Shown here: positions 20,515 to 40,865 of the stretch, piece after piece
Layout: each line of letters starts with the position of its first letter
How positions within the stretch are numbered: position 1 is the first letter of the stretch
NCBI GenBank assembly: GCA_905478325.1
Contig: CAJQIB010000001.1
Span: forward strand, 1 to 62,414
DNA from: an uncultured Flavobacteriales bacterium
GTDB taxonomy: Bacteria > Bacteroidota > Bacteroidia > Flavobacteriales_D > Sanyastnellaceae
Direction of reading: 5' to 3'
DNA length: 62,414 bases
The notes under the pieces: generated by a model
The model's database searches: none
Seen by the model: only the letters and a program-made list of their open reading frames with translations
Told to the model about the DNA's origin: nothing
Position numbers and translations under genes: made by a program

Positions 20515-23500
20515 TTAAAATGTGGTCGATATCGACAACGTGATCGCCCGTTCCTGCGGTGGCGTCAAATACGTCACGTTTGGACTCATGTTGCGGTCTT
20601 GTGCATTTTCGAAATCACGAACAACTTCGGGGTCAAGGCCTGGAAAATTGGTGATTGTCAGCAGGTTGGTTGCATTCAAAGCAATGCGGCACGCTGACAT
20701 CGTTGATCCCGGAGGCAAGGGAACGGTGAACCCGAGAGTCACGTTCCGCAAACGGATATACGAGGCATCGTAAATGAACAAACTGGTATTCCACCATGGA
20801 AACCCAGAAGGCAAACTGTACGTCGTCTCGTCCAAGGTGAGTCTTGGGTAGGTCGCCTCATCTCCCGGTTGTCTCCACCGGTCCAGCTTTTCTTCTCGCA
20901 TATTCCATCCTGTCACGACACCCAGTTGCCTTTTTGCAGAGGAATCGAAGATTTTAGCTCCAATGCTAAAGGTGGCCAAGCCGCTGAGGTCCCAGTTCTT
21001 GTAACGAAAGGTGTTGTTCATTCCACCAATGACGTCCGGCAGTCCGTCACCCACATATTTACGGATGTCGTTGCTGTATTCGTAGGTCTCGTTGCCGTCG
21101 AGGTCCAAATAAACAGGAAGCCCCGTTTCAGGATCAACATGGCTGTGTTCTACCAGGTAAAAACTCCCGACAGGTCGGCCTACGATGACGCGCGAATCAT
21201 TGGTTCCGCCACTGACGGCATCGGGTGTGTAGTTTCCGATATTAATCAGCTCATTGTAATTGCGTGCAATGTTCAAGTCTGTATTCCACTGCAAGTCTCC
21301 GGTCAAGTTTCTGGACTTAATGGAGAATTCAACCCCGCGATTGAGGATGGTGCCAACATTGTCCCAAAAGTTGGTGAACCCCGTGCTCGCTGGTGTGCTG
21401 ACATTCATGAGGACATCTGTTGAATACTTGTGGTAGCCTGCGAGCTCTAAGGTGACCCGGTCTTGCCACAGTCCCATCTCTACACTGGCATCAACCGTTC
21501 GGGATGTTTCCCATCGCAAGAAGGGGTTTTCCGGTTGAATCGGGTAAAGAATGGAGTCTCCTGCATATGTGTTGCCATTGTTTGCGGGTGAGTAGGTGCC
21601 GAATCGCGCGTAATCAGGCAACGCTGCATTTCCAGTAAGTCCGATACTCGTTCGAAATTTCAAGAAATTCACGTGCCTCGAAGAGAACCACGACTCATCA
21701 GAAATGACCCATCCTGCGGACAATGAAGGAAAGAATCCGTAGCGACTCTCCCGGCCGAAACGAGAGCTTCCGTCTACACGGGCTGTCGCTTGAACGAAAT
21801 ATCGGTCTTTCAACGCATAGTTGACTCGTCCGAAGTACGACAAGAAGCTATGCTGCGAAGGCAAGTTGACCGTTCTGTTGACATTGGCAGCATCATCTGA
21901 GAGGGAATCGTTTTCAAAAATGGGCCCGTCCACTTGTCCGTAAAACAAGCCATATCCATAGTTGTCCGTACGTTGAAACTCACTGCCTACGAGGAAATTC
22001 AACGTCTGGGTGTCATCCAATTCCAACAAATAATCGGCGGTGGCGCTGTAATTCCAGTTGAGAACATAATTCGCATTGCGATTGGCGCTCCCGAGATCCG
22101 AGGTGATCGACAAGGCTCCTGGATTGAACAGGTCCTCCTTGAGGTGCATGTAGTCAAAGCCCCCTGATAGTTTGACATGAAGGTCTTTGAGGGGAGTCAA
22201 TACCAATTGTGCGTTGTTGATGGAACGGTCCTCTGTATTCTTCCATTGCTTCAATTCACGAACGGCGACTGGATTCTTTGTGGTTCCCCATTCATCAAAC
22301 CACAAGAAATATTCTCCCGCTTCATTGGTAACAGTACCATTGGCATCCACTTGATCCTCTAAATAGCGAACGGGGTAGTACGGCAGCGCATTGGACATGG
22401 CATCTCCCAATCCGCCTGACCAAGCCGCATCAATGCGGTTGTTTTGACCTCGGCTCAGGGATGAACTTAAAATGACCTTGGCCCAAGGTTTTGGGGTCCA
22501 ATCAAAATTGACTCGAGCGCTCGAGCGATTGTAGCTGTTGCCAAGCAAGTAGCTTCCGTTGTTGTCTTGTGAAACGCCCGCATACAGGTTGTAGCGGTAA
22601 CCGCCATGCCGGACTCCAAAGTTGACGTTTCCTTTGGTACCGAGACCGGTTGTTTCGTCGACCCAATTGGTATTGGTCTGCAACGCCTGGAGGTACGCCT
22701 CTTTACGTGTCAGCGGATCATCTGATGACGACGTCAAGTTCGGAAGCCAGACATATCCGGTTCCGCCGTCATTTTCCCATGCTTCTTGTCGCAGGGTCAA
22801 ATACGACTCGGTGTCCATCATGTTGGGGCGCGTGGCGGGTATGCCGAATCCTGCGCGTGTGCTAAATTCAAAAGAAGTTCCTTTTCTTCCGCGTTTTGTG
22901 GTAATCAAGATGACCCCATTGGCTCCTCGTGACCCGTAAATTCCAGTCGCAGCGGCATCCTTGAGGATTTCCACAGATTCGATGTCGTTGGGGTTGATGG
23001 AAGCCAGAGGATTGTTATTGAAGGCTCCTGAATTTGCTCTCAAGAAATATTCTTGGGTAATGGGAATGCCATCAATGACGTAAAGCGGGTCACCGGCAGC
23101 GGAGACAGAAGCGACTCCCCGCACGCGAATCAAGGACGCTGATCCGGCTACACCCGAGGATTGGCTCACTTGAACACCGGCGGCTTGGCCCTGAAGTGCG
23201 GCTTCAAAAGAAGGTGTTTGGATTCCTGTGATTTGTTTGGCAGAAACCTGAACAATGGATCCTGTCACTTCTTTTTTACGCTGGACACCATAGCCCACAA
23301 CGACAACATCCTCGATCATCACCGCATCTTCCTCCAAAACAATGGACCATTCGATGGAGGTGTTTTGAATGTCAACGGAGCGTTTTTGCGTGAGGTATCC
23401 AATGAATGAGAAGGAGACCTGATGGCTTCCTTTTGATAGGGACAGCGAGAAGCTCCCGTCCATTCCTGCGAACTGACCATCCGTTCCATCGACAATAACC

Positions 23501-23616
23501 GAGGCGGAGGGCAAGGGATTGCCTTGCGCATCGACGATTGTACCGCTCAACGTTTGACCGAAGCCAATAAGCGGACTGCTCAGGATGAGCAAAAGGAGAA
23601 TTGATTTTAAGCGCAT
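20515..23616 (-). CDS. susC: SusC/RagA-family TonB-linked outer-membrane transporter
   Basis: 1033 aa from the ATG at 23616; the in-frame TTG seven codons upstream would put extra charged residues before the signal peptide. After the signal peptide comes a carboxypeptidase-like domain (SGTIVDAQGNPLPSASVIVDG). The SusC plug follows (IEDVVVVGYGVQRKKEVTGS, LYVIDGIPIT, VEILKDAAATGIYGSRGANG), then a 22-strand-type barrel ending in ERAITLSISTTF. It imports oligosaccharides into the periplasm with TonB energy. A perfect -7 box TAAGTTTG lies at 23635-23642, so susC may also have its own promoter inside the operon. Confidence 0.95.
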   Translation of the reverse strand: MRLKSILLLLILSSPLIGFGQTLSGTIVDAQGNPLPSASVIVDGTDGQFAGMDGSFSLSLSKGSHQVSFSFIGYLTQKRSVDIQNTSIEWSIVLEEDAVMIEDVVVVGYGVQRKKEVTGSIVQVSAKQITGIQTPSFEAALQGQAAGVQVSQSSGVAGSASLIRVRGVASVSAAGDPLYVIDGIPITQEYFLRANSGAFNNNPLASINPNDIESVEILKDAAATGIYGSRGANGVILITTKRGRKGTSFEFSTRAGFGIPATRPNMMDTESYLTLRQEAWENDGGTGYVWLPNLTSSSDDPLTRKEAYLQALQTNTNWVDETTGLGTKGNVNFGVRHGGYRYNLYAGVSQDNNGSYLLGNSYNRSSARVNFDWTPKPWAKVILSSSLSRGQNNRIDAAWSGGLGDAMSNALPYYPVRYLEDQVDANGTVTNEAGEYFLWFDEWGTTKNPVAVRELKQWKNTEDRSINNAQLVLTPLKDLHVKLSGGFDYMHLKEDLFNPGALSITSDLGSANRNANYVLNWNYSATADYLLELDDTQTLNFLVGSEFQRTDNYGYGLFYGQVDGPIFENDSLSDDAANVNRTVNLPSQHSFLSYFGRVNYALKDRYFVQATARVDGSSRFGRESRYGFFPSLSAGWVISDESWFSSRHVNFLKFRTSIGLTGNAALPDYARFGTYSPANNGNTYAGDSILYPIQPENPFLRWETSRTVDASVEMGLWQDRVTLELAGYHKYSTDVLMNVSTPASTGFTNFWDNVGTILNRGVEFSIKSRNLTGDLQWNTDLNIARNYNELINIGNYTPDAVSGGTNDSRVIVGRPVGSFYLVEHSHVDPETGLPVYLDLDGNETYEYSNDIRKYVGDGLPDVIGGMNNTFRYKNWDLSGLATFSIGAKIFDSSAKRQLGVVTGWNMREEKLDRWRQPGDEATYPRLTLDETTYSLPSGFPWWNTSLFIYDASYIRLRNVTLGFTVPLPPGSTMSACRIALNATNLLTITNFPGLDPEVVRDFENAQDRNMSPNVTYLTPPQERAITLSISTTF

Positions 23617-23634
23617 CAAATAAGGTTTACGAGG

Positions 23635-23642
23635 CAAACTTA
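23635..23642 (-). promoter_or_regulatory. Possible internal -7 box (TAAGTTTG) upstream of susC
   Basis: Perfect TAnnTTTG, 18 bases before the susC ATG, in the 63-base gap behind the amylase gene. No good -33 element is visible, so it is only a candidate internal promoter. Confidence 0.35.
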
Positions 23643-23679: not shown

Positions 23680-26559
23680 TCAATGAACAATGACCCGCTG
23701 AGTATCCATCCGGCCATCATGCACGAGCTGAATGAAATACAATCCAGCGTTCCAATCAGCAACGGAAATGGTGAACTCAGTCGTTCCATCATGCCAAGGT
23801 GTAACGTTTTGTCGGGAAATCAGTTGACCGGTGGTGTCCAAGACTTTCAATTCACAGTCATTCAATGACTGTGATGAGAATGAGCAATGGATGATGTTCG
23901 AGGCAGGGTTGGGATGGAGATTAAACTGAAGGTCAGAACCGGCATGTGCGCTGATCCCGTTGGTTATAGGTGAGGCGATGTCGGCGTCCAAAAACACATG
24001 GTACTCGCCTGGAGCGAAATCCATAAACGCATTCACATCCGAAACGTCAAAGGATGTCCCTGTAAAGTAGTCGTACCACATTCCGGTATGCTGAAACCCC
24101 GGAATCATGCTCAAGTCGGTCACCTTAAAGTTGGCAACAATCACGGCATTGAGATCGATGCCATTGATGAGAAGTCGCTTTCCATACCCTCCAACATCAA
24201 AGTTGTAGTTGTTTGAAGTGAAAGGGTCGGGATACGTTGTTTTTAGATGAGCCAATCCCGAGATGACCTCGTGGATGCGATAGCGATTCGCATTGTCTCG
24301 ATAATCCCATCGGACAGGTTTGGCTTCTGTGCGGCAATTTTCGCTGATGGTCGTACCATCACTGCACGTGTTGATGCTGTAATCGTACCCCAACTCTTCA
24401 AATTGATAGAGCATTTTAGGCCCAGGAAGTGGGATGTTGAAGCACTGCAAGGCTTCCATGCGAGCCAAAGCCGTATTCAAGTCGGAAACTTGGTAACCAC
24501 CGTCGCCATTTCCAAATGAAAGTGCCTTATAGATCAAGCGCTCTTCATCGTGGCTTTCTGGATAGCTTACTACGTGGGGGGAGGACATGCCCTGTTCCTG
24601 ATAATTCGCCCAATTGAAATTGGATCCATAGCCCATCAAAGCTTCGGAATATTCATGGGACGTATTGGCCCAAACCATGAAGCCATCTTCGACCAAGGCT
24701 TGCAATTCACTGTTGTCAGTCCAGTGTTCTAGGATCATGTAGATGCCAGGGTCGGAGCTCCACACGTGATCCGCATAGTTGTTGAGGATGTTGATCCGGC
24801 TTTGGTCATATCCATTGCCCCAGCCGGAGGTTTGGGTCATGCCTTTTGAAAAGTCCAATCGGTATCCGTCCACATGATATTCATTGATCCAATAGGCCAA
24901 TGTTCGTTTCATGAAGGCCACTGTGGCCCCGCTTTCGTGATTCCAATCATAAAACCACGTTTCCGGTGATGGCGACACTTCATTGAACCACGGGTTGCTC
25001 GCAGCTGGTTGATTTTCGGCATCGTTCCAATACATCTCGAGAAATGGATTGGGGGTGTCCGCATGATTCAATGCAACATCTAAAATGACAGCGATTCCAC
25101 GTTCATGGCAAGCATTCACGAGCGATTTAAACGCGTTTTTCGTTCCATAAGCTTTGTCGAGTGCCAAATAGAATGTGGGGTTGTATCCCCAGCTGTCGTT
25201 TCCATTGAACTCATTGATTGGCAGGAACTCGATGGCGTTGATCCCCAGCCGATCGAGATAATCTAAGGTGTCCAATATGGTCTGGAAATTGCGTTCTTCA
25301 GTGAAGTCGCGAACGAGCAATTCATACACAATCAATTGGTCGTTTTCTGGTCGCTGAAATTCTGCATCGCTCCAAGGGTAGTCTTGTTGCGCTGTTTGAA
25401 ACACGGAAACGGGCTTGTTCTCCGTCAGCATGTTGGGAAAGGGCATCAAATCCGGGTAGGTCGATTCTGAAATCCAGCCATCATTCCATGGATCCAAGAC
25501 CACTTCTGAATACGCATCTGCGACCCGCATGTCGTCGGGCATGATGTGGTAGTGAAATCGATATTCTTGGCCGGGTGTTAAGCCGGTGAGGTCAATCCAG
25601 TAACGCGACTGATCTGGAGTGGGCGTCATCAAGTAATCGTAACTCAGTTCCCAATTGTTGAAGTCTCCCACTGCGAATACGTGCTCTTTTGACGGGGCAT
25701 ACAATTGAAGCCGTACACTCGTGTCGGAGAGATACTTGATACCATCTTCAGATCCATTGGGTGGCCAAGCAGTGACAGGACTGCCGGGCAACACAGTCAG
25801 TGTCGCTGAATCCGAGGCCACAGAACTGCCATTGTCTGCTACCATCAGCAGGTTGTATTGCCCTGCATCCAAGGCCTCAAAATCATACGTCAATGAGGTT
25901 CCTGAAGCTGTCGTCACCGACTCTTCATTGATGAACAATTCCATTTCACTCGCTTCCGAAGCTTGTCCGGAAATAGCAAGCGATTCTCCAATTCCTAAAA
26001 CGGCATACCCAAGCTCAGGCGTTTGGATGGAAACAGAAAAAGCACCGGTACTGACTTCATAAAAGATGTCTGAACCATCCGCGTTACGCCCCACGAGACT
26101 TCCCGATGCATTGCGAAATACCATGGCTAAGTTTTCGATGCTGACACCATCAGGAATCCCATAATATGCTGCCAAGGTCAACCCGTTGAAATCGAAAGAA
26201 TGGACTCCGCTGCCTTCAGGATTCAGAACGTACTCAGCATCGCTCACACCCCATGTCGTTTGCACAAACTGCCAATCGCTTGGACCTGAACTTTCACTGG
26301 TAATGACACCCGTATGAATGTAGACGGGAATAACGCCTTCCAATTCGCCGTTGCCTAACCCGCTGTCGAAGTAGAGGGTGACCAGGTCGTCAGCTGTGGG
26401 GAAAGCGGGATCTGTCCAAATCACTTGTCCGGATGCGTTTTGAGCAAATAGAACACCTGTGAAGAACCAAAGGAAGAGGTTTAGGCGGGCTGCTTTCGCT
26501 ATGCGAGACACCGTGTTTTTGGTCAAATTTGACGTCTGCTGAATCGTTATCGTGTTCAT
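23680..26559 (-). CDS. Secreted multidomain GH13 alpha-amylase with T9SS tail
   Basis: 959 aa. The signal peptide has an unusually long n-region and ends near FAQNASGQ. Beta domains follow, including a CBM48-like one (LQLYAPSKEHVFAVGDFNNW). The GH13 barrel shows region I DVALNHADTP, region II GYRLDFSKGM (nucleophile Asp), region III MILEHW (acid/base Glu) and region IV YPESHDEER. The last ~85 residues form a T9SS sorting domain (LHPNPASNIIHCSF, VLDTTGQLISRQ, WNAGLYFIQLV). The enzyme should act on starch outside the cell. Its ATG overlaps the CotH stop codon (ATGA, 26556-26559), so the two are translationally coupled. Confidence 0.94.
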   Translation of the reverse strand: MNTITIQQTSNLTKNTVSRIAKAARLNLFLWFFTGVLFAQNASGQVIWTDPAFPTADDLVTLYFDSGLGNGELEGVIPVYIHTGVITSESSGPSDWQFVQTTWGVSDAEYVLNPEGSGVHSFDFNGLTLAAYYGIPDGVSIENLAMVFRNASGSLVGRNADGSDIFYEVSTGAFSVSIQTPELGYAVLGIGESLAISGQASEASEMELFINEESVTTASGTSLTYDFEALDAGQYNLLMVADNGSSVASDSATLTVLPGSPVTAWPPNGSEDGIKYLSDTSVRLQLYAPSKEHVFAVGDFNNWELSYDYLMTPTPDQSRYWIDLTGLTPGQEYRFHYHIMPDDMRVADAYSEVVLDPWNDGWISESTYPDLMPFPNMLTENKPVSVFQTAQQDYPWSDAEFQRPENDQLIVYELLVRDFTEERNFQTILDTLDYLDRLGINAIEFLPINEFNGNDSWGYNPTFYLALDKAYGTKNAFKSLVNACHERGIAVILDVALNHADTPNPFLEMYWNDAENQPAASNPWFNEVSPSPETWFYDWNHESGATVAFMKRTLAYWINEYHVDGYRLDFSKGMTQTSGWGNGYDQSRINILNNYADHVWSSDPGIYMILEHWTDNSELQALVEDGFMVWANTSHEYSEALMGYGSNFNWANYQEQGMSSPHVVSYPESHDEERLIYKALSFGNGDGGYQVSDLNTALARMEALQCFNIPLPGPKMLYQFEELGYDYSINTCSDGTTISENCRTEAKPVRWDYRDNANRYRIHEVISGLAHLKTTYPDPFTSNNYNFDVGGYGKRLLINGIDLNAVIVANFKVTDLSMIPGFQHTGMWYDYFTGTSFDVSDVNAFMDFAPGEYHVFLDADIASPITNGISAHAGSDLQFNLHPNPASNIIHCSFSSQSLNDCELKVLDTTGQLISRQNVTPWHDGTTEFTISVADWNAGLYFIQLVHDGRMDTQRVIVH

Positions 26560-28865
26560 TGCACAAGGATGGTGTGTGACTGGGGTGAGCTCGGTTCCAA
26601 TAGGTTCCAGTGCACAATGTATGCACCGGGTTGAAGAAGATTGCCTGGAATTCGGGAAGACTCTCCGGCTGCAATGTGCACGCCATTGGACTGGTATAAA
26701 TTCCAGACGTTGGAATGCGGCATTGAAATCGGCTGACCCGCTCGATGTGGGTTGTTAGGATGCCAAGGGGCCTCAAGCGATGCGGTTTCGGATACGACAT
26801 TCTCCATGTCTCCATTGGGAGCGTTGGGTGTCGGAGGGGTGTCGGTAAATAGGAAAAACCAGGTCCAAGAGGGTGCTCCGTCTGTTGTCCTCCCCCAACT
26901 CGCATTGGGAGCTGCACCATTCCAATGCGCCGAGTCGATCAGACGCCAGGCGTCGGCGTCCATCGTCGTGATGAACACATCGCCGCTGTCAGCGTCCAGA
27001 TGAAACGGAGCGTGAAGGGGCCCGTCTTCAACATCATCATCACAATAAAACACCACGTGCTGACCGGGGTCGAGCGTGACATTCGGCAGAGACCATCGGT
27101 TTGGCCAGTCGAGGCGGTTGGTGAGATAATGATAACTCAGGTTGATGGGCGCGTTGCCTGCGTTGTACAATTCTACCCAATCGGCATACCCGCCGGCTTC
27201 ATCCTGCATGAAACTGTTGTTGAGCGGCATGGCCTCGTTAATCACCAAGCCATTGCTGAGTGATGCATTCCAAACTTGGCGAGATGTACACGGCGATTGC
27301 ACCGCATTGTTCTCAGACTCAGCGACCACTGTCCACCAGGCATGCGCACTGCCATTCATCGGGATCTCAGCTTCCCAGAGGCTCCCAAACTCGCTGGATT
27401 CAACCAGTGACAAAGGATAAGACACGTTGGAAGTGGCCTCCATTTGAACGTCAGCATGGATGGAGTTGATTGTGTTGCCCTCAGTTGATGCAATCCATGC
27501 ATGAACGGTGAGCGTGTCATTGACCAAGGGGCTCGGCGCCCACGCAGTCAAAGAAAGCGGACCCCATTCGAGGGCTTCATCCAATTGAATGTCGGCCCAA
27601 AATTGCCGGCTCTCCATAAACGGTACAATTCCCCATGCCACGTGTCCGCCCCAATTCTCGGACAATGCAAGGGTGAAATCATCGGCATCGAAGCCATAGT
27701 CCATGGTGTAAAATGAGTCATCCGCAATGGAAATGCCGATCGTGGATTGGATCACTTCACCCCGGGCTTGCATCCAATCCAGTGTGTAGGTCTCATCCAT
27801 GAGCTGCCGCATGAAATAAGTGAATGCCGTTTTATACGCTGGAACAGCCATCAAGCGTGTATACAAGGGTCTGTCTGATGCATCCGTCCAGCTGTAAGGG
27901 TCTTGGTTGGTCCATTCTCCAAACCATTGAATACCCAATGCATTGTCAGCGTCGTAAGGAATGTAAACGATGCGCTGGTCTTCAGGCCTGTGGTACAGGT
28001 AGAAGTTGTTTTTATTCCCAATGTAATTGTCCCAATGGCCACAGAGGATTTCAGCGGCAGCAATCTTCAGATAGCCGTAAACATCAAAGACATCTTCAAG
28101 AGCGCAGGGAAGCGACTCCAAGGGTTCGTTGTTCAGGACATCGATGAATTGAGCCAAGGCACCGTAGTGGTCTTCCGCTACATTGGTCTTCAGGTCATAC
28201 ACGCGGTCTTCGCTCCAGCTCGGTGTGAATTTGTAATCCTCACCGGATGAACCTTGGTAGGTGAGATTGGCAGGATAGGTGCACTTCCACAGATTCCCAT
28301 GATCTTGAATAAACCGTTTTTCTAGCCACTCTTCATCGATGTGTTCGAGGTTATAGTAGAGCCCATGGTACACTCCGTTGACGAATAAATTGACGTGATT
28401 GCTTCTGGAGACAGGCAAGCCAGCGTCGCGCATGCCTTCCCAAATCAAGCGCGCTCGGATGACGCTCGGGTCGTTGTGCTCTCCATTGAGATTCATTTTC
28501 TCAATACCTTCCCAAGACCCGCCGGGATTGAACGTGTTGAACGAGATTTTAAATGACTTTTTATCTGCGGCTCTTGACGTGTTTCCGCGCAGACGAAATC
28601 CGATGTTCGAAACGGTATCGGTGCTACCCGCTGATTGAAAAATAAAAGAGGCAGGATGCTCTTCATTGGAATACCAGTTGGACTCCTCATACATCCATTC
28701 CAGAGCTTCTCCGCATTCAATGTGAATGGTGGGCAGGTCATTCTGAACAAAGGGCACACCGTTAGCAGGATGAGGTAACATTCCTTGAGCAACGGCCGTG
28801 GATCCAGACTGAAGGTAGCCTGCAAAAAAAAGCAGGAAGAAGCAGCAGCGAGCGGAATCCTTCAT
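26556..28865 (-). CDS. Secreted CotH kinase-family protein with lamin-tail domain and T9SS-like tail
   Basis: 769 aa from the ATG at 28865 (an in-frame TTG lies five codons upstream). The signal peptide is followed by the CotH domain: FRLRGNTSRAADKKSFKISF, MNLNGEHNDPSVIRARL, NHVNLFVNGVYHGLYYNLEH, then the catalytic-type segment HWDNYIGNKNNFYLYHR with IVYIPYDADNALG. Residues ~545-680 contain a lamin-tail domain (LVINEAMPLNNS, YADWVELYNAG, LDPGQHVVFYCDDD). The last ~45 residues (LYQSNGVHIAAGE, LLQPGAYIVHWNL) resemble a T9SS sorting signal. CotH proteins are atypical kinases that can phosphorylate proteins. Here it is the second gene of the starch operon, 45 bases behind the regulator; its target is unknown. 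Confidence 0.9.
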   Translation of the reverse strand: MKDSARCCFFLLFFAGYLQSGSTAVAQGMLPHPANGVPFVQNDLPTIHIECGEALEWMYEESNWYSNEEHPASFIFQSAGSTDTVSNIGFRLRGNTSRAADKKSFKISFNTFNPGGSWEGIEKMNLNGEHNDPSVIRARLIWEGMRDAGLPVSRSNHVNLFVNGVYHGLYYNLEHIDEEWLEKRFIQDHGNLWKCTYPANLTYQGSSGEDYKFTPSWSEDRVYDLKTNVAEDHYGALAQFIDVLNNEPLESLPCALEDVFDVYGYLKIAAAEILCGHWDNYIGNKNNFYLYHRPEDQRIVYIPYDADNALGIQWFGEWTNQDPYSWTDASDRPLYTRLMAVPAYKTAFTYFMRQLMDETYTLDWMQARGEVIQSTIGISIADDSFYTMDYGFDADDFTLALSENWGGHVAWGIVPFMESRQFWADIQLDEALEWGPLSLTAWAPSPLVNDTLTVHAWIASTEGNTINSIHADVQMEATSNVSYPLSLVESSEFGSLWEAEIPMNGSAHAWWTVVAESENNAVQSPCTSRQVWNASLSNGLVINEAMPLNNSFMQDEAGGYADWVELYNAGNAPINLSYHYLTNRLDWPNRWSLPNVTLDPGQHVVFYCDDDVEDGPLHAPFHLDADSGDVFITTMDADAWRLIDSAHWNGAAPNASWGRTTDGAPSWTWFFLFTDTPPTPNAPNGDMENVVSETASLEAPWHPNNPHRAGQPISMPHSNVWNLYQSNGVHIAAGESSRIPGNLLQPGAYIVHWNLLEPSSPQSHTILVQ

Positions 28866-28910
28866 GAGCTCAGACTTCAATGACGCTTTGAAAAGACGTT
28901 CTCACGGGGT

Positions 28911-29624
28911 TCATTCCGAAATTTCATTGGGATTGAAGCTAAATAGCTGGGCTGGCTTGTGCATGACGCCCTTCTGCTTCTCGTTGAGTGGAACCACGTG
29001 TGGCATGCGCTTCACGTTCTTTCGGAAATTTCGCTTGTCGAATTTTTTATCCAAGACCAATTCATACAACGCCTGAAGCTGGCTCAACGTGAATTTCTTA
29101 GGAAGCAATTCGAAACTGATGTGATGACTTTCAAGTTGTTCACGCAATGCTTCAAATCCGGATGAAAGAATTTCGTTGTGGTCAAATGCAAGGGCAGGAA
29201 TATCATTCAAATCAACCCAATGCACACTTCCTGCAAATGATGCGGGTTTCGGAGAAAAATCTTGAAGGCTCACCAACCCAAAGTAAGCTACTGTGATGAC
29301 TCGTTGATCAGGAAGTGTCCTTAACGACTGAAGCCATGCCCGATCCTTGGCATCTTGAACCCGCGTCGGATCTCCAAAAGCATGAAATTGTTTCAGATAA
29401 ATGCCATTGAGTTGTGTCAATTCCAATAGAACACGTTTGGCCGCTTCAAGCAAGCCTTCGTTGATGAGAATCAGGTCGCCTGGAAGCTGTGGCTGGGATT
29501 TGATATCCAGACCCAGTCCGTTGTTTGGAAGCTGTTGGTTGATCAAAAGGACCTTCAAACCGTTGTCGTCATAACCAAAGATTACGCAATCAACGGAGAT
29601 GTGCAAAGCATCGTGTTCCATCAT
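28911..29624 (-). CDS. NrtR-family Nudix-like transcriptional regulator
   Basis: 237 aa from the ATG at 29624. This start is favoured over ATG 29639 because it is followed by a second Met and lies exactly four bases behind a TACTTTCG box. Residues ~1-140 form a Nudix fold (HISVDCVIFGYDDNGLKVLLI, LPGDLILINEG), but the Nudix box is degenerate: LLEAAKRVLLELTQLNGIY lacks the catalytic REXXEE glutamates. The C terminus is the winged helix of NrtR regulators (KKFTLSQLQALYELVLDK, FDKRNFRKNVKRM, KPAQLFSF). Relatives sense ADP-ribose or sugars such as arabinose (AraR of Bacteroides). As first gene of the starch operon it is the likely regulator of both divergent operons. Confidence 0.9.
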   Translation of the reverse strand: MMEHDALHISVDCVIFGYDDNGLKVLLINQQLPNNGLGLDIKSQPQLPGDLILINEGLLEAAKRVLLELTQLNGIYLKQFHAFGDPTRVQDAKDRAWLQSLRTLPDQRVITVAYFGLVSLQDFSPKPASFAGSVHWVDLNDIPALAFDHNEILSSGFEALREQLESHHISFELLPKKFTLSQLQALYELVLDKKFDKRNFRKNVKRMPHVVPLNEKQKGVMHKPAQLFSFNPNEISE

Positions 29625-29628
29625 AAAG

Positions 29629-29636
29629 CGAAAGTA
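29629..29636 (-). promoter_or_regulatory. -7 box TACTTTCG of the regulator/starch operon
   Basis: TACTTTCG, then CTTT, then the ATG at 29624. No TTTG-like -33 element is recognisable; the region 41-55 bases before the start holds the GTGTA-N5-TACAC inverted repeat instead, which would suit an activated promoter. Confidence 0.55.
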
Positions 29637-29664
29637 CATCTTTAGTTCTCAATTCGCTCGTTAT

Positions 29665-29679
29665 GTGTATTAATTACAC
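29665..29679. promoter_or_regulatory. Inverted repeat GTGTA-TTAAT-TACAC, candidate operator of the starch locus
   Basis: Perfect 5-bp arms around a 5-bp AT spacer, in the 133-bp region between the regulator and pfkA. Its centre (29672) is 48 bases from the predicted start of the regulator mRNA (29624) and 50 bases from the predicted start of the pfkA mRNA (29722). The placement upstream of both -33 regions suggests a dimeric activator serving both directions. The natural candidate is the adjacent NrtR-type protein; this link is inference. Confidence 0.6.
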
Positions 29680-29685
29680 TAAGTC

Positions 29686-29717
29686 TTGGATTCGGAATTA
29701 AACTCAACGTATATTCG
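29686..29717 (+). promoter_or_regulatory. Promoter of the pfkA-gapA-kinase-pgmB-GH65 operon
   Basis: TTG at 29686-29688, a 21-base spacer, and TATATTCG at 29710-29717. This gives a leader of about 51 bases before the pfkA ATG, unlike the leaderless genes of this window. Confidence 0.5.
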
Positions 29718-29772
29718 CCCGCCGTATCAACTGCTCAACAACTGTGCAGGCTATACAATAGGAACCGAGAGC

Positions 29773-30744
29773 ATGAAGAAAATTGCCGTTTTAACTTCAG
29801 GAGGCGATGCGCCTGGCATGAATGCTGCAATTCGAGCAGTCGTTCGAGCAGCTGTTTACCATGGATGTGAAGCTGTTGGGGTGTTTCAGGGGTATCAGGG
29901 ATTGATTCAAGGTGACTTCAAACGCTTGCATGTTCGATCTGTGGCTAAAATTCTTGGACGTGGAGGCACGATTTTGAAATCAGCGCGTTGTCAGGAGTTC
30001 AGAACGGAAGAGGGACGAAGGAAGGCGCACCAGCAACTTTTGGAGCACAATGTGGAGGCGCTTGTCGTCATTGGAGGCAATGGTACCTTCGAGGGGGCGA
30101 TGCATTTTTATAAAGAAACGGGATTTCCTGTCATTGGTTTGCCGGGAACGATAGACAACGATCTCTCTGGTTCGGACTTCACCATTGGTTTTGATACGGC
30201 AACCAACACGGTCGTTGAAGCCGTCGATAAAATTCGTGATACGGCAGACAGCCACAACCGGTTGTTTTTTGTAGAGGTGATGGGCCGTGACAGTGGATTT
30301 ATCGCGCTGCATGCAGGAATTGCAACCGGTGCAGTTGCTGTTATGACCCCGGAAACAGGTATTTCGATACAAGAGCTTGTCGATATTTTGGACCGAGGAC
30401 AAGCGTCGAACAAGACATCTTCGATTGTGATTGTGGCGGAAGGGCATCCTGAGGGTGGGGCCTATGACATCGCGAAAAAGGTGCATGAATTGGATCAACG
30501 CTATGATACGCGAATCACTGTTTTGGGGCATTTACAAAGAGGAGGGGAGCCGAGCTGCTTTGATCGTTTGCTGGCCTCCAAGTTGGGAGTTGCGGCTGTA
30601 GAAGGATTGCTTTCTGGAAAACGCAATGTCATGGCGGGCATCATCAATGATCAGTTGGTCTACTTTCCTTTTGAGGAAGTCATTGTAAACAAAACACAGG
30701 AATTAGAGGATGAGGTGCGGCTTGCTCGCATTCTGTCCATTTAA
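29773..30744 (+). CDS. pfkA: 6-phosphofructokinase (PfkA type) with GGNG variant
   Basis: 323 aa from the ATG at 29773, which begins with the family N terminus KKIAVLTSGGDAPGMNAAIR. Other signatures: GGTILKSARCQEF, the catalytic PGTIDNDLSGSDFTIGFDTA, DKIRDTADSHNRLFFVEVMGRDSG, and VLGHLQRGGEPSCFDR. It converts fructose 6-phosphate to the 1,6-bisphosphate. One key position differs: the normal GGDG loop (Asp103-Gly104 in E. coli numbering) reads GGNGTFEGA. The Gly that marks ATP over pyrophosphate use is kept, but the Mg-binding Asp is Asn. It is the first gene of the plus-strand operon; gapA follows after 27 bases. Confidence 0.95.
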   Translation: MKKIAVLTSGGDAPGMNAAIRAVVRAAVYHGCEAVGVFQGYQGLIQGDFKRLHVRSVAKILGRGGTILKSARCQEFRTEEGRRKAHQQLLEHNVEALVVIGGNGTFEGAMHFYKETGFPVIGLPGTIDNDLSGSDFTIGFDTATNTVVEAVDKIRDTADSHNRLFFVEVMGRDSGFIALHAGIATGAVAVMTPETGISIQELVDILDRGQASNKTSSIVIVAEGHPEGGAYDIAKKVHELDQRYDTRITVLGHLQRGGEPSCFDRLLASKLGVAAVEGLLSGKRNVMAGIINDQLVYFPFEEVIVNKTQELEDEVRLARILSI

Positions 30745-30771: not shown

Positions 30772-31755
30772 ATGAAGAACATTGCAATCAACGGGTTTGG
30801 TAGAATTGGTCGCTTAGCGTTTCGACAATTGTTGGACCGTGAAGGTGTGCGTGTTGTCGGAATCAATGACTTGACCGATGTGAACACGTTAGCTCATTTG
30901 CTAAAATTTGATAGTGTTCATGGCCGTTTTGCAGGTGAAGTATCAGTCTCAGGAGGTCACCTTGTTGTGAACGGTGAAACGATTCACATTACCGCTGAGA
31001 GAAATCCTGCTGATTTGCCATGGAGCACATTAAAAGTTGATGTAGTCGTCGAATCCACAGGTGTTTTTGCAACCGCTGAAAAAGCGGGATTGCATTTGGA
31101 AGCAGGCGCTGGCAAGGTGGTCATCAGTGCACCGGCCAAGGGAGATTTGAAGACCGTTGTTTTGGGGGTCAATGACCACATCTTAACTGCGGATGATCGC
31201 ATCGTATCCAACGCTTCCTGCACAACGAATTGCTTGGCTCCAATGGCCAAGGTTCTTGATGATTTATATGGAATTGACCACGGCTTTATCACGACGATTC
31301 ACGCGTATACGGCTGACCAACGTTTGCAAGATGCGCCACACAGTGATTTGCGTCGCGCTCGTGCTGCTGCCTTGAGCATGATCCCTACATCAACAGGAGC
31401 AGCGAAGGCTGTGGGATTGGTGTTGCCACAGTTGGCGGGTCGATTGGATGGCTTGGCCATTCGTGTACCGACTCCAACAGGGTCCGTGACAGATTTGACT
31501 GCAATTTTGAAAAAGCCCGCTACCGCGGCAGAGGTGAATGCTGCAATGAAGCACGCATCCCAGGGTGCTATGAAGGGAATCCTTGAATATTCTGAAGATC
31601 CTCTTGTATCTGTCGATATCGTTGGCAATGGTCACTCATGCATCTTTGATTCAGGCCTGACCTTGGCAACGGGAACGACTGTAAAGGTGTTCGGTTGGTA
31701 TGACAATGAGGCGGGTTATGCCGCTCGGGTTGCCGACTTGGTTGGACGCATTTGA
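30772..31755 (+). CDS. gapA: Glyceraldehyde-3-phosphate dehydrogenase, type I
   Basis: 327 aa, close to the usual ~333. The NAD-binding start INGFGRIGRLAFRQ, the catalytic motif NASCTTNCLAPMAKVL (Cys ~150), HAYTADQRLQDAPHSDLRRAR, PTSTGAAKAVGLVLP and the C-terminal WYDNEAGYAARVADL are all present. The enzyme oxidises glyceraldehyde 3-phosphate with phosphate. Lying between pfkA and sugar-phosphate genes of a starch locus, it may be a copy induced on carbohydrate, separate from a housekeeping copy elsewhere. Confidence 0.97.
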   Translation: MKNIAINGFGRIGRLAFRQLLDREGVRVVGINDLTDVNTLAHLLKFDSVHGRFAGEVSVSGGHLVVNGETIHITAERNPADLPWSTLKVDVVVESTGVFATAEKAGLHLEAGAGKVVISAPAKGDLKTVVLGVNDHILTADDRIVSNASCTTNCLAPMAKVLDDLYGIDHGFITTIHAYTADQRLQDAPHSDLRRARAAALSMIPTSTGAAKAVGLVLPQLAGRLDGLAIRVPTPTGSVTDLTAILKKPATAAEVNAAMKHASQGAMKGILEYSEDPLVSVDIVGNGHSCIFDSGLTLATGTTVKVFGWYDNEAGYAARVADLVGRI

Positions 31756-31804: not shown

Positions 31805-32674
31805 ATGAATATTCTCATAGCTGATAGTGGATCTACAAAGTGTGATTGGATGGCCATTGATGCCGCAGGTCAGGTTTTGGGGGAATTCAACACCATGGGG
31901 TTCAATCCTTACTTCCACGACGCGAACCTGGTCGCAAAGGTGATGATGGATACGCCAGAGGCTGTCGAGATGGCTTCTGACGTTGATCGCGTCTACTTTT
32001 ATGGCGCTGGCAGCAGTTCAGAGTCCTTGTGCGCTGTAATTCGCGACGGATTGGAGCGGGTTTTTCCGAATGCGACGGTGTTAGTGGGGCATGATTTGGA
32101 TGGAGCTGCTTACAGCACGTACGAGGGCGAACCTGCGATTACGTGTATAATTGGTACGGGATCCAACTCGTGTTTTTTCGACGGTGAAACAACGTCTGAA
32201 GTTGTTCCTGCCTTGGCTTATATCTTGGGTGATGAAGCCAGTGGTTCTTGGTTTGGAAAACGCTTACTCACGTCTCATTTTTACCACAAATTGGACCCAA
32301 TGGTCCAAGAGGACTTTGTGAAGACCTATGGGTTCTCAAAAGATGATATTGTAAATCGGGTGTACAAGGAGCCCAACGCCAATGTTTTCTTGGCCTCGTT
32401 TATGACGTTCATTGGTCGCCACCAGGATGTTCCTCAAATTATATCGCTTTTGGAAGAAGGTTTCCAGGCATTTGTTGACGCGCACATTAAGTGTTACGAC
32501 AATTACAAGGATGTGCCGGTTCACTTTGTAGGCTCAGTAGCCTATCATTTTCAACCTGTTCTGAGGCACGTGTGTGAGCGTGAAGGGATACGAGTAGGTC
32601 AGATCATCAAGCGTCCTATTGACGGGTTATCTTCCTACCACGTTCAGTATATCTTGTCAGAAAACCAAGCTTAA
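31805..32674 (+). CDS. BadF/BadG-family sugar kinase (N-acetylglucosamine kinase-like)
   Basis: 289 aa with the ASKHA nucleotide-binding elements in order: phosphate-1 ADSGSTKCDW, phosphate-2 CIIGTGSNSCFF, and adenosine motif VHFVGSVAYHF; LGDEASGSWFGKRLL is typical of the N-acetylglucosamine kinase-like branch. It should phosphorylate a hexose with ATP in the cytoplasm. In this operon it is the best candidate for phosphorylating the free glucose released by maltose phosphorolysis, since no glucokinase or ROK kinase is in the locus. Only 4 bases separate it from pgmB. Confidence 0.88.
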   Translation: MNILIADSGSTKCDWMAIDAAGQVLGEFNTMGFNPYFHDANLVAKVMMDTPEAVEMASDVDRVYFYGAGSSSESLCAVIRDGLERVFPNATVLVGHDLDGAAYSTYEGEPAITCIIGTGSNSCFFDGETTSEVVPALAYILGDEASGSWFGKRLLTSHFYHKLDPMVQEDFVKTYGFSKDDIVNRVYKEPNANVFLASFMTFIGRHQDVPQIISLLEEGFQAFVDAHIKCYDNYKDVPVHFVGSVAYHFQPVLRHVCEREGIRVGQIIKRPIDGLSSYHVQYILSENQA

Positions 32675-32678
32675 TCGC

Positions 32679-33338
32679 ATGACCTTCAAAGGATGCCTAT
32701 TTGATTTGGATGGAGTCATCGTTGACACAGCCTCGCATCATTTCGTGGCATGGAGAACGTTGGCAGATGAATTGGGCGTTCCGTTTGATGAGTCGGACAA
32801 CGAAAAACTCAAAGGGGTTTCGCGCGTAGATAGTCTGGAGTTCATTCTTCAGAAGGGAAACTTGGTATTGGATTCCAATACCAAGCTGAGGTTGATGGAG
32901 AAAAAGAATGCGCATTACCTCGGGCTAGCCGCACAAATTCAACCGTCAGATGCCTTGCCAGGAATCGTCGCCTTGATCGATGAACTGAAAGTATTGGGCG
33001 TAAAAATTGGTTTGGGCTCTTCTTCCAAGAATGCAGAGCAGATTCTCTCCAAGTTGGGTTTGCTCGATGCGTTTGACACCATCGTGGATGGAAACCATCT
33101 AACATTATCGAAGCCAGACCCTGAAGTTTTCTTGATGGGAGCCAATGCTTTGGGGCTTCTTCCTGAAGAATGCCTCGTTGTGGAGGATGCTTCAGCCGGC
33201 GTTCAGGCGGCAATTTCCGGAGGTTTTTGTGTTTTGGGTATTGGTCGAAAAGAAGAACTTGGACAGGCCGATGCGGTTGTTTCAGGTTTAGGTGACCTGA
33301 ATTGGTCTGAAATTCAGAACTTGCTCACTCACAAGTGA
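32679..33338 (+). CDS. pgmB: Beta-phosphoglucomutase
   Basis: 219 aa from the ATG at 32679. HAD-family motifs: FDLDGVIVDTASHHFVAWR (nucleophile and general acid Asp), GLGSSSKNAEQIL (Ser), LSKPDPEVFLMGA (Lys) and VVEDASAGVQAA (metal Asp). The cap segment LKGVSRVDSLEFIL is typical of beta-phosphoglucomutase rather than general HAD phosphatases. It converts beta-glucose 1-phosphate from maltose phosphorylase into glucose 6-phosphate. The GH65 gene follows after 13 bases. Confidence 0.94.
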   Translation: MTFKGCLFDLDGVIVDTASHHFVAWRTLADELGVPFDESDNEKLKGVSRVDSLEFILQKGNLVLDSNTKLRLMEKKNAHYLGLAAQIQPSDALPGIVALIDELKVLGVKIGLGSSSKNAEQILSKLGLLDAFDTIVDGNHLTLSKPDPEVFLMGANALGLLPEECLVVEDASAGVQAAISGGFCVLGIGRKEELGQADAVVSGLGDLNWSEIQNLLTHK

Positions 33339-33351
33339 TGCAGCTGAATTC

Positions 33352-35655
33352 ATGTCAAAATTGGTGAATGACCCGTGGTGTCTGATTGAATCGGAATGGA
33401 ATTCTGAATCAGTCCGTTCTTCCGAATCTCTATTTTCTATTGGCAATGGTCGGTTTGGACAACGGGCGAATTTCGAAGAGCACTATTCTGGTGATTCGCA
33501 TCAAGGGAGCTACTTAGCCGGTGTTTATTATCCGGATAAGACACGAGTAGGCTGGTGGAAAAATGGCTATCCCGAATATTTTGCCAAAGTTCTCAATGCG
33601 ACGAATTGGATTTCCATAGACCTCTACGTTGACGGAGAGCGCGTGGATTTAAACGCCGTGTATACCGTGCACCAGTTCCATCGGGAATTGGACATGCGCG
33701 AAGGAGTCTTGAAGCGAAAATTTGAGGTGACCCTTCAAAACCAGTGCACTATTGTCGTCGAGTCGGAACGCTTTTGTTCAATGCACAGTCCAGAAACAGC
33801 CGCCATACGGTATGCTGTGCGGGCCGTCTCAGGTGCTATGCACGTTGAGCTGCGTCCGGGTATTGATGCCGACGTCAAGAATGAAGACAGCAATTGGGAC
33901 GATGCGTTTTGGAAAATACGTTCAGTAGAATCCCAGGAAGACGGAAGTGCCGCGGTTCTCAATGAAACGGAAAAGACACACTTTGAAACGGCTGCTGCGA
34001 TGAGAAATCGTGTTCGCACCATCCATGAGAAGGGAGAAACGGCAGTCTTGCCGTCGTCCAACTCCACTTCAACTCATGCTGGCGTGGTCGCTTACAACGC
34101 GTCGTTAAAAGCGGGAGAGACGGTGGTGTTAGAGAAATTTGTTGGGATTGCAACGTCCCTTCATCACGTGCATGGCCAGGTCTTGGAAGCGGCAAAGGTC
34201 GCTGCCAAAGACGCCGAGGGGCGGACGTATGCGACATTGTTGGATGAACACAAAAAGGCGTGGATGTCCATCTGGAATCACGGAGATATCGTGATCGACG
34301 GTGATGTGGGTGCACAGCAAGCCATTCGATTCAATATTTTTCATTTGAATCAGACGTACCGTGGAGATGACGCCAGGCTGAATATTGGTCCCAAGGGCTT
34401 TACGGGTGAGAAGTATGGTGGTGCGAGTTATTGGGATACGGAAGCCTACTGCCTGCCCTTTTTCTTGGCAGGGCACGAGAAAGGTGTAGCCAAACAGCTG
34501 CTTTTGTATCGCTACCACCATTTGGATCGTGCCATAGAGAATGCCGAGAAATTAGGGTTTTCTTGTGGAGCGGCATTGTACCCGATGGTTACGATGAACG
34601 GCGAGGAATGTCACAATGAGTGGGAAATCACCTTTGAGGAAATCCACCGCAACGGAGCGATGGTATACGCTATTTGGAACTACATCAATTACACGGGAGA
34701 CCAAGCGTATATGGCCGAAGCTGGTTTTGCTGTGATTCTTGGAGTTGCACGGTTTTGGGCCCAACGTGTGCAATGGTCTGAGCCGAAGCAAGCATACGTG
34801 ATCTTAGGTGTTACTGGACCGAATGAATACGAGAACAACGTCAATAACAATTGGTATACCAATTATTTGGCGGCCTGGTGCTTGCAATATGCTGCTGATT
34901 CTGCAGCGGCCTTGATGCAGAATGAGCCCGAAGTATGGGGCAAACTATGTGCTGAATATCAAGTCAATCCAGCGGGTGAAGTCGCGCGTTGGAAGGCCGT
35001 TGCTTCCGCAATGTATCAGCCGCGATTGGATGGCTCCAGTGTCTTTTTGCAACAAGACGGTTTTATGGACAAGGAGCAGCTAACCGCATCAGATATCCCT
35101 GCAGAACACCGCCCGATCAACCAGCACTGGAGTTGGGACCGTATCCTGCGATCTGTGTTCATCAAGCAAGCGGATGTCCTGCAAGGAATGTACTTTTTTC
35201 AAGATGATTTTAATCAGGAAGTGCATGAGCAGAATTATGCATTTTATGAGCCGAAAACGGTTCACGAATCCAGTTTGTCGCCCTGTGTGCATGCCATTTT
35301 GGCTTCTAAGCTTGGAAAGAAGGACGAAGCGTATGCACATTATTTGCGCACGGCGCGTTTGGACTTGGATGACTACAACAAGGAGGTGTACCAAGGGTTG
35401 CACATTACCTCGATGGCCGGTACGTGGTTATCTGTCGTAGAAGGCTTCGGTGGGTTTCGTGTGCGCAACGGAGTTCCGGAATTCAAAGGAGCGTTGCCCG
35501 CAAAATGGAATGCGCTTCAATTTTCTATGCTTTTCCGAGGGCGTCAATTGGAAATCCGAATTGATTCGGACGGTACCATGGTCACCCTCATCGTTGGAGA
35601 GACCTTAGAGGTAATGATAGACGGCGAGCTGCAGCGACTGCAACCCGCCGATTGA
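33352..35655 (+). CDS. GH65 glycoside phosphorylase, probably maltose phosphorylase
   Basis: 767 aa, full length for GH65. The N-terminal beta-sandwich (FSIGNGRFGQRANFEE) is followed by the (alpha/alpha)6 barrel with GGASYWDTEAYCLPFFL, ECHNEWEITFEEIHRNGAM and the catalytic acid region GVTGPNEYENNVNNNWYTN (Glu ~492), then KQADVLQGMYFF and a C-terminal beta domain. The NNVNNNWYTN version of the catalytic segment fits maltose phosphorylases better than trehalose or kojibiose phosphorylases. The reaction is maltose plus phosphate to beta-glucose 1-phosphate plus glucose, in the cytoplasm. The upstream pgmB uses the first product and the BadF-type kinase could use the second. Confidence 0.92.
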   Translation: MSKLVNDPWCLIESEWNSESVRSSESLFSIGNGRFGQRANFEEHYSGDSHQGSYLAGVYYPDKTRVGWWKNGYPEYFAKVLNATNWISIDLYVDGERVDLNAVYTVHQFHRELDMREGVLKRKFEVTLQNQCTIVVESERFCSMHSPETAAIRYAVRAVSGAMHVELRPGIDADVKNEDSNWDDAFWKIRSVESQEDGSAAVLNETEKTHFETAAAMRNRVRTIHEKGETAVLPSSNSTSTHAGVVAYNASLKAGETVVLEKFVGIATSLHHVHGQVLEAAKVAAKDAEGRTYATLLDEHKKAWMSIWNHGDIVIDGDVGAQQAIRFNIFHLNQTYRGDDARLNIGPKGFTGEKYGGASYWDTEAYCLPFFLAGHEKGVAKQLLLYRYHHLDRAIENAEKLGFSCGAALYPMVTMNGEECHNEWEITFEEIHRNGAMVYAIWNYINYTGDQAYMAEAGFAVILGVARFWAQRVQWSEPKQAYVILGVTGPNEYENNVNNNWYTNYLAAWCLQYAADSAAALMQNEPEVWGKLCAEYQVNPAGEVARWKAVASAMYQPRLDGSSVFLQQDGFMDKEQLTASDIPAEHRPINQHWSWDRILRSVFIKQADVLQGMYFFQDDFNQEVHEQNYAFYEPKTVHESSLSPCVHAILASKLGKKDEAYAHYLRTARLDLDDYNKEVYQGLHITSMAGTWLSVVEGFGGFRVRNGVPEFKGALPAKWNALQFSMLFRGRQLEIRIDSDGTMVTLIVGETLEVMIDGELQRLQPAD

Positions 35656-40233: not shown

Positions 40234-40865
40234 ACCTGTTCGAGCAGCGTGGCGTGTATGGCCGTCACCTGCGGAATGAGCATTGCGTGAAGGCCATTGT
40301 CAATGCGGTGCTGCGCGCAATCTTCTCTTTGTGCATCAGTCCACTGGTGCTGCATCCGTTGCGCCACTTTTTCTTGCGTCCATCCGGATCGCTTCATGGC
40401 GCGCTCCATGCGCAATGATGAGGGTGCAGAAACGGTGATCACTTGGCGACAGTCAACGTGCGCCCCGCTTTCAAATAAAATGGCGGCTTCTCGAATCACA
40501 TAGGGCGAAGGAGAGTTGGATTGCATCCATGTTGTGAACGCATTTCGAATCAATGGATGTACCCATTGGTTCAATGTGGCCAGTCCTTCTGAATCCTGAA
40601 ACACCCGTTCCCCCAACAACGCTCGGTGAATATCGACGCAGTAGTCGTCTTCCATGACTGCGAGGTCTTGCCCGAACCGTTCCAAGACCCGATTTCGGAG
40701 TTCCGCGTGCATGCGGTACACCGTATGTCCTGCGGCATCGGCATCCCAGCGCGGGATTCCGAGGGACTCGAAGATCTGTCCCACGGTCGTTTTTCCACTG
40801 CCGAGTCCTCCGGTCAGTCCGATAATCGGAACAACATCTGCTGTGCTTGTGGAAAAGTCCTCCAT
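40227..40865 (-). CDS. coaE: Dephospho-CoA kinase
   Basis: 212 aa. P-loop GLTGGLGSGKTTVGQIFESLG, substrate motif IPRWDADAAGHTVYR, HPLIRNAF, IREAAILFESGAH and LRMERAMKRSG (lid Arg residues) define CoaE. It makes the last step of coenzyme A synthesis. The ATG is four bases behind a CACCTTTG box that mirrors the rpe promoter. Confidence 0.96.
   Translation of the reverse strand: MEDFSTSTADVVPIIGLTGGLGSGKTTVGQIFESLGIPRWDADAAGHTVYRMHAELRNRVLERFGQDLAVMEDDYCVDIHRALLGERVFQDSEGLATLNQWVHPLIRNAFTTWMQSNSPSPYVIREAAILFESGAHVDCRQVITVSAPSSLRMERAMKRSGWTQEKVAQRMQHQWTDAQREDCAQHRIDNGLHAMLIPQVTAIHATLLEQVQ

Follow-up and report, generated by a model that had tools for sequence, protein, structure and literature searches.

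A conserved palindrome between divergent gene groups of an uncultured Flavobacteriales bacterium: very probable operator of an NrtR/AraR-type sugar regulator

In this study, we asked what purpose is served by a short palindrome, GTGTATTAATTACAC, that lies at positions 29665-29679 between two back-to-back gene groups in an uncultured Flavobacteriales bacterium. The features discussed are collected in Table 1, with positions given for the window, that is, the whole stretch of 62,414 nucleotides that was analysed. Very probably, a sugar-sensing switch protein docks at the palindrome. This type of docking site is already known, and it is the set of genes under it that looks new. Taken as a whole, sequence comparison is best explained by the palindrome being an operator of the adjacent NrtR/AraR-type regulator over an alpha-glucan divergon, an assignment we consider highly likely.

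The preliminary description of this locus had called the palindrome the only perfect inverted repeat of its type found in the intergenic regions, and it is indeed the sole exact GTGTA-N5-TACAC in the window, where mononucleotide shuffles give an expectation of 0.06. Two matches with one mismatch are found at 33658, within the GH65 gene, and at 40707, within open reading frames of 212 and 106 amino acids, while up to two mismatches there are 23 matches against a shuffle mean of 11.8. The exact 15-mer is single-copy in the assembly (2.38 Mb, 59 contigs). We rejected rarity of the palindrome as evidence, since the window contains 82 perfect palindromes of 5-5-5 form when any sequence is allowed, and some such palindrome occurs in 12% of mononucleotide-shuffled intergenic sequences of 133 nt. 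The bare palindrome proves little by itself; what lifts it above chance is its conservation in relatives and its recurrence at metabolically related genes. In relatives the usual form is WWAGTGTA-N5-TACACTWW, from which the window site departs by one base (its TAT flank).

Table 1. Features of the divergon, with window positions
Feature	Position	Strand	Basis or remark
Operator core GTGTA-TTAAT-TACAC (GTGT-N7-ACAC)	29665-29679		Sequence, window and assembly counts, relatives
Extended operator TAT-GTGTATTAATTACAC-TAA	29662-29682		Comparison with relatives
Putative -33 element TTG, pfkA promoter	29686-29688	+	Predicted from sequence and consensus (passages of PMC6847099); just downstream of operator
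Putative -7 element TATATTCG, pfkA promoter	29710-29717	+	TAHHTTCG spacing in congeners
Putative -7 element TACTTTCG, regulator promoter	29629-29636	-	Predicted
NrtR/AraR-type regulator (Nudix-like domain and winged helix)	28911-29624	-	Pfam; likely start ATG 29624
CotH/LTD secreted protein	26556-28880	-	Family search; downstream of regulator
Secreted GH13 alpha-amylase	23680-26559	-	Family search
SusC-like TonB-dependent receptor	20515-23637	-	Plug and CarboxypepD domains
pfkA, ATP-dependent 6-phosphofructokinase	29773-30744	+	Family search; first gene of divergent operon
gap, glyceraldehyde-3-phosphate dehydrogenase	30772-31755	+	Family search
BadF/BcrA-type sugar kinase, N-acetylglucosamine-kinase-like	31805-32674	+	Family search; under curated cut-offs
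pgmB, beta-phosphoglucomutase	32661-33338	+	Family search
GH65 glycoside phosphorylase, maltose-phosphorylase-like	33352-35655	+	Family search

Among the nine scanned proteins of the locus, neither NAD genes nor arabinose genes were found. The CotH-kinase/LTD secreted protein between regulator and amylase occupies the same place in many of the relatives fetched. Promoters were read against the Flavobacterium johnsoniae scheme, in which, as set out in passages of PMC6847099, the -7 element is numbered T-12 to G-5 and the -33/-7 consensus is TTTG/TANNTTTG. With this numbering, the predicted pfkA start is 29722 and the palindrome centre (29672) lies at -50 from it; the predicted regulator start, 29624, coincides with the A of the probable start codon and places the centre at -48. 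The distances of 48 and 50 bases proposed in the earlier account were thereby reproduced. The start of the longest regulator reading frame (29639) overlaps the gene's own putative -7 box; a start at ATG 29624 (or 29621) and a near-leaderless mRNA are likelier.

To place the regulator, we compared it with characterised members of its family. The translation of 28911-29639 matches the Pfam families NrtR_WHD (1.4e-23), AraR_C (1.4e-07) and NUDIX (1.3e-04), all above gathering cut-offs, and Pfam and fold match agree on the arrangement that defines NrtR proteins, an N-terminal Nudix-like domain and a C-terminal NrtR winged helix. The AlphaFold2 model has a mean pLDDT of 85, and sequence and fold searches alike give BtAraR as the closest PDB structure (5dd4, E 4.6e-22 in the fold search). 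BtAraR (BT0354; PDB 5bs6, 5dd4, 5ddg, 5deq) is the NrtR-family L-arabinose repressor of Bacteroides; according to passages of PMC4666351, its crystal operator is GTGT-N7-ACAC, with protein contacts to the GTGT, and one of its gel-shifted sites is GTGTA-N5-TACAC. The window protein resembles it in its two domains, in a GTGT-N7-ACAC operator that adjoins the regulated sugar operon, and in its recognition helix, where all six residues checked (D178, K179, R180, N181, R183 and K184 of BtAraR) are identical. Across 65 orthologs, D178, R180, N181 and R183 are invariant, K179 is kept in 64, and K184 in 53 with arginine in the other 12. Such a helix, together with a GTGT-N7-ACAC operator near regulated genes, characterises the Bacteroidota AraR-type subgroup, to which the window protein belongs on both counts. 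Unlike BtAraR, with which it is about 31% identical when aligned by fold, the regulator is found with adjoining and operator-marked genes for starch, glycolysis and pyruvate dehydrogenase, not arabinose.

The ligand pocket differs as well. Of the BtAraR sugar-pocket residues, R86 and H131 are kept in 65/65 orthologs and F129 in 64, whereas R34 is glutamine in the window protein and in 51/65 orthologs, G48 is D or N in 65/65 and F49 is L in 62. A segment of about 15 extra residues follows R86, a pattern seen in 56/65 orthologs and in 0/19 distant homologues. Because the pocket is partly kept and partly changed, and carries this extra segment, a sugar-like but different ligand may be expected. 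With glutamine for R34 and no arabinose gene among the nine proteins scanned, the protein falls outside the L-arabinose regulators proper. It shares fold and domain order with the Shewanella NrtR (3gz5, 3gz6, 3gz8), an ADP-ribose-responsive repressor of NAD genes, and differs from it in the recognition helix (QGKSFRR in Shewanella) and in the ADP-ribose contact R98, a position that is D, E or N in 65/65 orthologs. As its score in the NCBIfam NrtR repressor model is 99.8, where the cut-off is 400, and no NAD gene is among the nine proteins scanned, it does not belong with the NAD-controlling NrtR proteins. Given the residues at the R98 position, ADP-ribose is an unlikely effector, and a sugar or sugar phosphate is the probable one. 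The same genome encodes a second NrtR-type regulator (L072 7432-8139, on G000:C21) with almost the same recognition helix; its neighbours, identified by eye, look like metK, metH and metF, and no GTGT-N7-ACAC lies within 350 nt upstream of it.

Conservation was followed in 100 genomes (the organism's own and 99 relatives), in 84 of which the regulator search gave a match. From the 86 stretches surrounding these matches, with neighbours mapped by tblastn, we took as divergons the 60 fetched loci in which a regulator match has pfkA or nagK opposite it at no more than 1.2 kb. This count excludes L087, where a distant homologue faces gap, and orthologue loci whose neighbour lies elsewhere or off the contig end (including L037, L038, L043, L049, L051, L065, L070 and L094). 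A core-perfect GTGT-N7-ACAC lies between regulator and divergent pfkA or nagK in 57 of the 60, and the full GTGTA-N5-TACAC in 29, while the scrambled controls CACA-N7-TGTG and TGTG-N7-CACA each occur in none. The exceptions are L056 and L057, with 7 of 8 core bases, and L069, which keeps the regulator-pfkA pair with no recognisable site. All 19 congeneric divergons, that of the window included, carry the operator. In an ungapped alignment of these on the core, pairwise identity is 39% in the left flank and 50% in the 7-nt spacer; the 100% identity of the 8 arm bases results from the choice of anchor, but three bases outside the anchor are also present in 19/19, namely the A at the fifth position and, in the right TNA, its T and its A. 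Two core-perfect operators, one nearer each promoter, occur in 5 of the 60 divergons (L042, L046, L048, L113 and L114). Where pfkA lies apart from the regulator (G028, G040, G055 and G058), the operator still precedes pfkA. The earlier expectation that syntenic relatives would keep the repeat against a drifting background is borne out, and the proposal of an NrtR-family sugar operator is well supported by these loci, by the BtAraR helix residues and by the shared GTGT-N7-ACAC layout.

Named homologues extend this picture. Among the matches listed, a core-perfect site lies within 500 nt upstream in 47 of 77 homologues (those with at least 100 nt upstream among the best 80 named records, with identity down to 41%), against 0/77 for the control; site-bearing homologues with the regulator-pfkA pair include Marivirga sericea and three Pedobacter. 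The nearest named record among these matches is the MAG Flavobacteriales bacterium ANT-22 (96% over the regulator), followed among named MAGs by Bacteroidetes bacterium casp40-mb.41 (88%). Of 19 homologues at 32-45% identity, 15 have K179 and 15 have R180, a helix so similar that another NrtR-type protein might read the same sites; yet no core-perfect site precedes the gene of any of the 19.

Beyond the divergon, WWAGTGTA-N5-TACACTWW gave 95 matches, spread over 38 of the 100 genomes, where the reversed pattern gave 3 (both summed from the table). None of the 95 falls in the 16 genomes that lack a regulator match. Only this stricter pattern told signal from control in genome-wide scans. The pattern TTAGTGTA-N5-TACACTAA was not enriched in the organism's own genome at up to 3 mismatches (3 forward and 17 control matches), and at 2 mismatches gave 63 forward against 69 control matches in 37 same-family genomes (summed). 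Likewise, relaxed GTGT-N7-ACAC was not enriched in the own genome (20 matches, 37 for the control); we inspected the window site and 14 new loci among these 20, and those inside genes (e.g. L223, L229) are taken as chance. The strict pattern is matched in only 5 of the 21 congeneric genomes (G000-G020), and the own genome's match is not the window site: it lies at L151 3703-3723 (G000:C26:9702-9722), next to genes for a GH92 glycosidase and for a secreted protein with no Pfam family.

Neighbouring genes were annotated for 61 sites among the matches listed, with the rows of G032, G041 and G051 left out and sites without a clear target (e.g. L167, L193) kept out of the target classes. An IPExxxVDY-pyruvate kinase operon adjoins the site in at least 11 genomes; gdhA, pdhA and pfkA are each found at least 5 times, pgi, GH31 and GH13 at least 4 times each, susC at least 5 times (once as second gene), starch-binding proteins at least 3 times, enolase and pdhB at least twice each and fbp at least once, the remainder being a few single genes and sites with no clear target. 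Family searches confirmed representatives of pyk, IPExxxVDY, pgi, pdhA, gdhA, eno, fbp, GH31, GH13 and the permease, while the labels of pdhB, susC and the starch-binding proteins come from similarity or from inspection by eye. The glutamate dehydrogenase sites would form an unexpected nitrogen link of the regulon; upstream of NADP-glutamate dehydrogenase the site lies 75-87 nt before the -7 box in 5 genomes (L156, L182, L208, L212 and L214).

At pdhA, a core-perfect site is present in 19/21 congeners, in 7/16 other regulator-bearing genomes (one of the seven, L345, lying past the projected start) and in 0/13 scored genomes without regulator, only 3 of which are from the same family. In 9 of those 16 genomes outside the genus, pdhA thus stands without a core-perfect site; G072 was left out for want of a full pdhA. 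In G016, which is 63% complete, the pdhA site is present, yet only a 41% regulator homologue was found. The pfkA site is likewise absent in all 13 scored genomes without an orthologue, a set mostly of other families, in which two (G026 and G045) carry a 43% regulator homologue and from which 4 of 18 genomes dropped out for lack of a pfkA match and G085 for a broken one. In G026 (L085 6473-10092), the homologue stands in one operon, on one strand, with nagK, gap and pfkA; its recognition-helix K179 is replaced by isoleucine and its pfkA lacks a GTGT-N7-ACAC site, so that a change of operator is possible. Further sites precede a sugar transporter in 11/19 congeners and a GluP-type hexose permease in 5/21; the window species has none upstream of its transporter and one in the intergenic region behind it. 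Pyruvate kinase was rejected as a target in the window's own genus, where 0 of 20 scored congeners carry the site.

How operator and promoter are placed relative to each other bears on the sign of regulation, and here we used TAHHTT[TC]G as the strict -7 box. A possible but lesser reading is that the regulator is a pure repressor that, like BtAraR, would occlude promoters everywhere until a sugar releases it, binding at -48/-50 blocking polymerase at both promoters of the divergon. BtAraR does release DNA on arabinose (passages of PMC4666351), and a strict -7 box stands 0-8 nt before the site at 7/11 pyk, 2/3 starch-binding-protein, 1/4 pgi and 1/4 susC genes. By eye, congeneric transporter sites also have a -7-like box about 7 nt downstream, and a second site with one core mismatch covers the regulator's own -7 box in 12/19 congeneric loci, the window species being without it, which suggests autorepression. 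Outside the genus, a loose -7-like box abuts the pfkA operator, in the repressor position, in 17/38 loci; it is strict in 4 of these 17 and has a G at -9, virtually absent from true -7 elements (passages of PMC6847099), in 8. In 7 non-genus loci a strict box lies 16-29 nt downstream instead, one of them (L113) having a loose abutting box as well. The repression case at pfkA thus rests mainly on loose boxes, and is firmer at pyruvate kinase. Uniform occlusion is also hard to square with the genus itself, where the operator lies at a near-constant distance from the strict pfkA -7 box (28 nt in 2 loci, 29 in 13 and 30 in 4) and where pdhA sites lie 60-61 nt upstream of TATATTTG in 18/19 cases and 72 nt, about one helical turn more, in one, beyond the range of simple occlusion. 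From the differing box positions inside and outside the genus, the operator has moved relative to the pfkA promoter between genera. A strict -7 box follows the site by 10-100 nt at 5/5 pdhA, 2/2 eno, 5/5 gdhA and 3/4 GH31 genes. Helical phasing of the operators is only suggestive (Rayleigh p about 0.006 at 10.25 bp, the best of 13 periods, from 25 hand-entered, non-independent points).

The preliminary description had proposed that one dimer at the single site activates both divergent operons. The 28-30 nt spacing at pfkA in 19/19 congeners and the near-equal distances of the centre from both predicted starts fit it, as do the starch-binding-protein genes of three congeners (L321, L332 and L333), where inspection by eye shows a loosely -7-like box at 29 nt from a site. 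The regulator side speaks against it: spacing to the regulator -7 box is 23, 24, 28 or 34 nt in congeneric loci (with no box found in L090), and the second site overlaps that promoter in most of them. Dual activation from one site is therefore unlikely. Least probable of all, and in our view improbable, is that the palindrome serves another factor, such as the second NrtR-type protein, whose recognition helix is nearly identical. Genes of such proteins have no core-perfect site upstream in any of 19 cases, while the site adjoins the orthologue studied here in almost every divergon and is missing at pfkA and pdhA in the genomes scored without that orthologue.

We return to the adjacent regulator as the protein that very probably reads the palindrome. 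As in BtAraR, each winged helix of a dimer would read one GTGT half-site, and a dimer seated between the promoters would control the regulator-cotH-amylase-susC genes in one direction and pfkA-gap-sugar kinase-pgmB-GH65 in the other. The same operator would serve further genes of central carbon and starch use: pdhA and the sugar transporter in this genus, and pyk, pgi, eno, pdhA, gdhA, GH31, GH13 and susC in sister genera. Because the operator recurs at both central-carbon and starch genes, the regulator probably couples the supply of starch-derived sugar to glycolysis and pyruvate oxidation. Judging from position, it would repress where the site sits just behind the -7 box (pyk and some starch genes) and probably activate where a fixed distance separates an upstream site from the box (in this genus at pfkA and pdhA; elsewhere at pdhA, eno and gdhA). 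The sequences show the site, its conservation, its company with the regulator, its agreement with the AraR operator and its neighbouring genes, and from these we infer binding, effector and the sign of regulation. Whether a Nudix-fold factor in this way governs glycolysis, pyruvate oxidation and alpha-glucan use, with operator position setting repression or activation and with targets and sign swapping between genera, is in our judgement about evenly balanced. The same even judgement covers its reach through this Flavobacteriales family and beyond, with an upstream site at fixed helical phase for activation.

Cra (FruR), CggR and HexR are glycolysis regulators of other phyla that act on pfkA, pyk, gap and pdh-type genes, and their protein families and operators are unrelated to the NrtR-type regulator. 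The regulator described here would fill the same role, as one factor on glycolysis and pdh-type genes. Within the Bacteroidota, XylR (BT0791) is likewise an NrtR-family sugar regulator, but serves the xylose genes of Bacteroides (passages of PMC3878776). In the open-licence literature, we found neither a glycolysis-controlling transcription factor in Bacteroidota nor an NrtR-type glycolysis regulator. The accessible part of RegPrecise 3.0 has Bacteroidaceae represent the Bacteroidota, and the available text of a study of marine Cryomorphaceae, which have simple alpha-glucan loci with GH13 and GH65, does not contain the word 'regulator' (PMC6794258).

In conclusion, the operator claim is strong, and the regulon is the more interesting point. 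If the wider reading is true, central carbon metabolism joins NAD and pentoses among the matters under NrtR-family control, with an NrtR-type factor that links PfkA, pyruvate kinase and pyruvate dehydrogenase to the uptake of starch, and this would offer a testable handle on switching between sugar and other carbon in polysaccharide-feeding bacteria. The operator motif would let the regulon be read from uncultured genomes, and in this family of mostly uncultured bacteria the regulator seems to tie starch eating to glycolysis.
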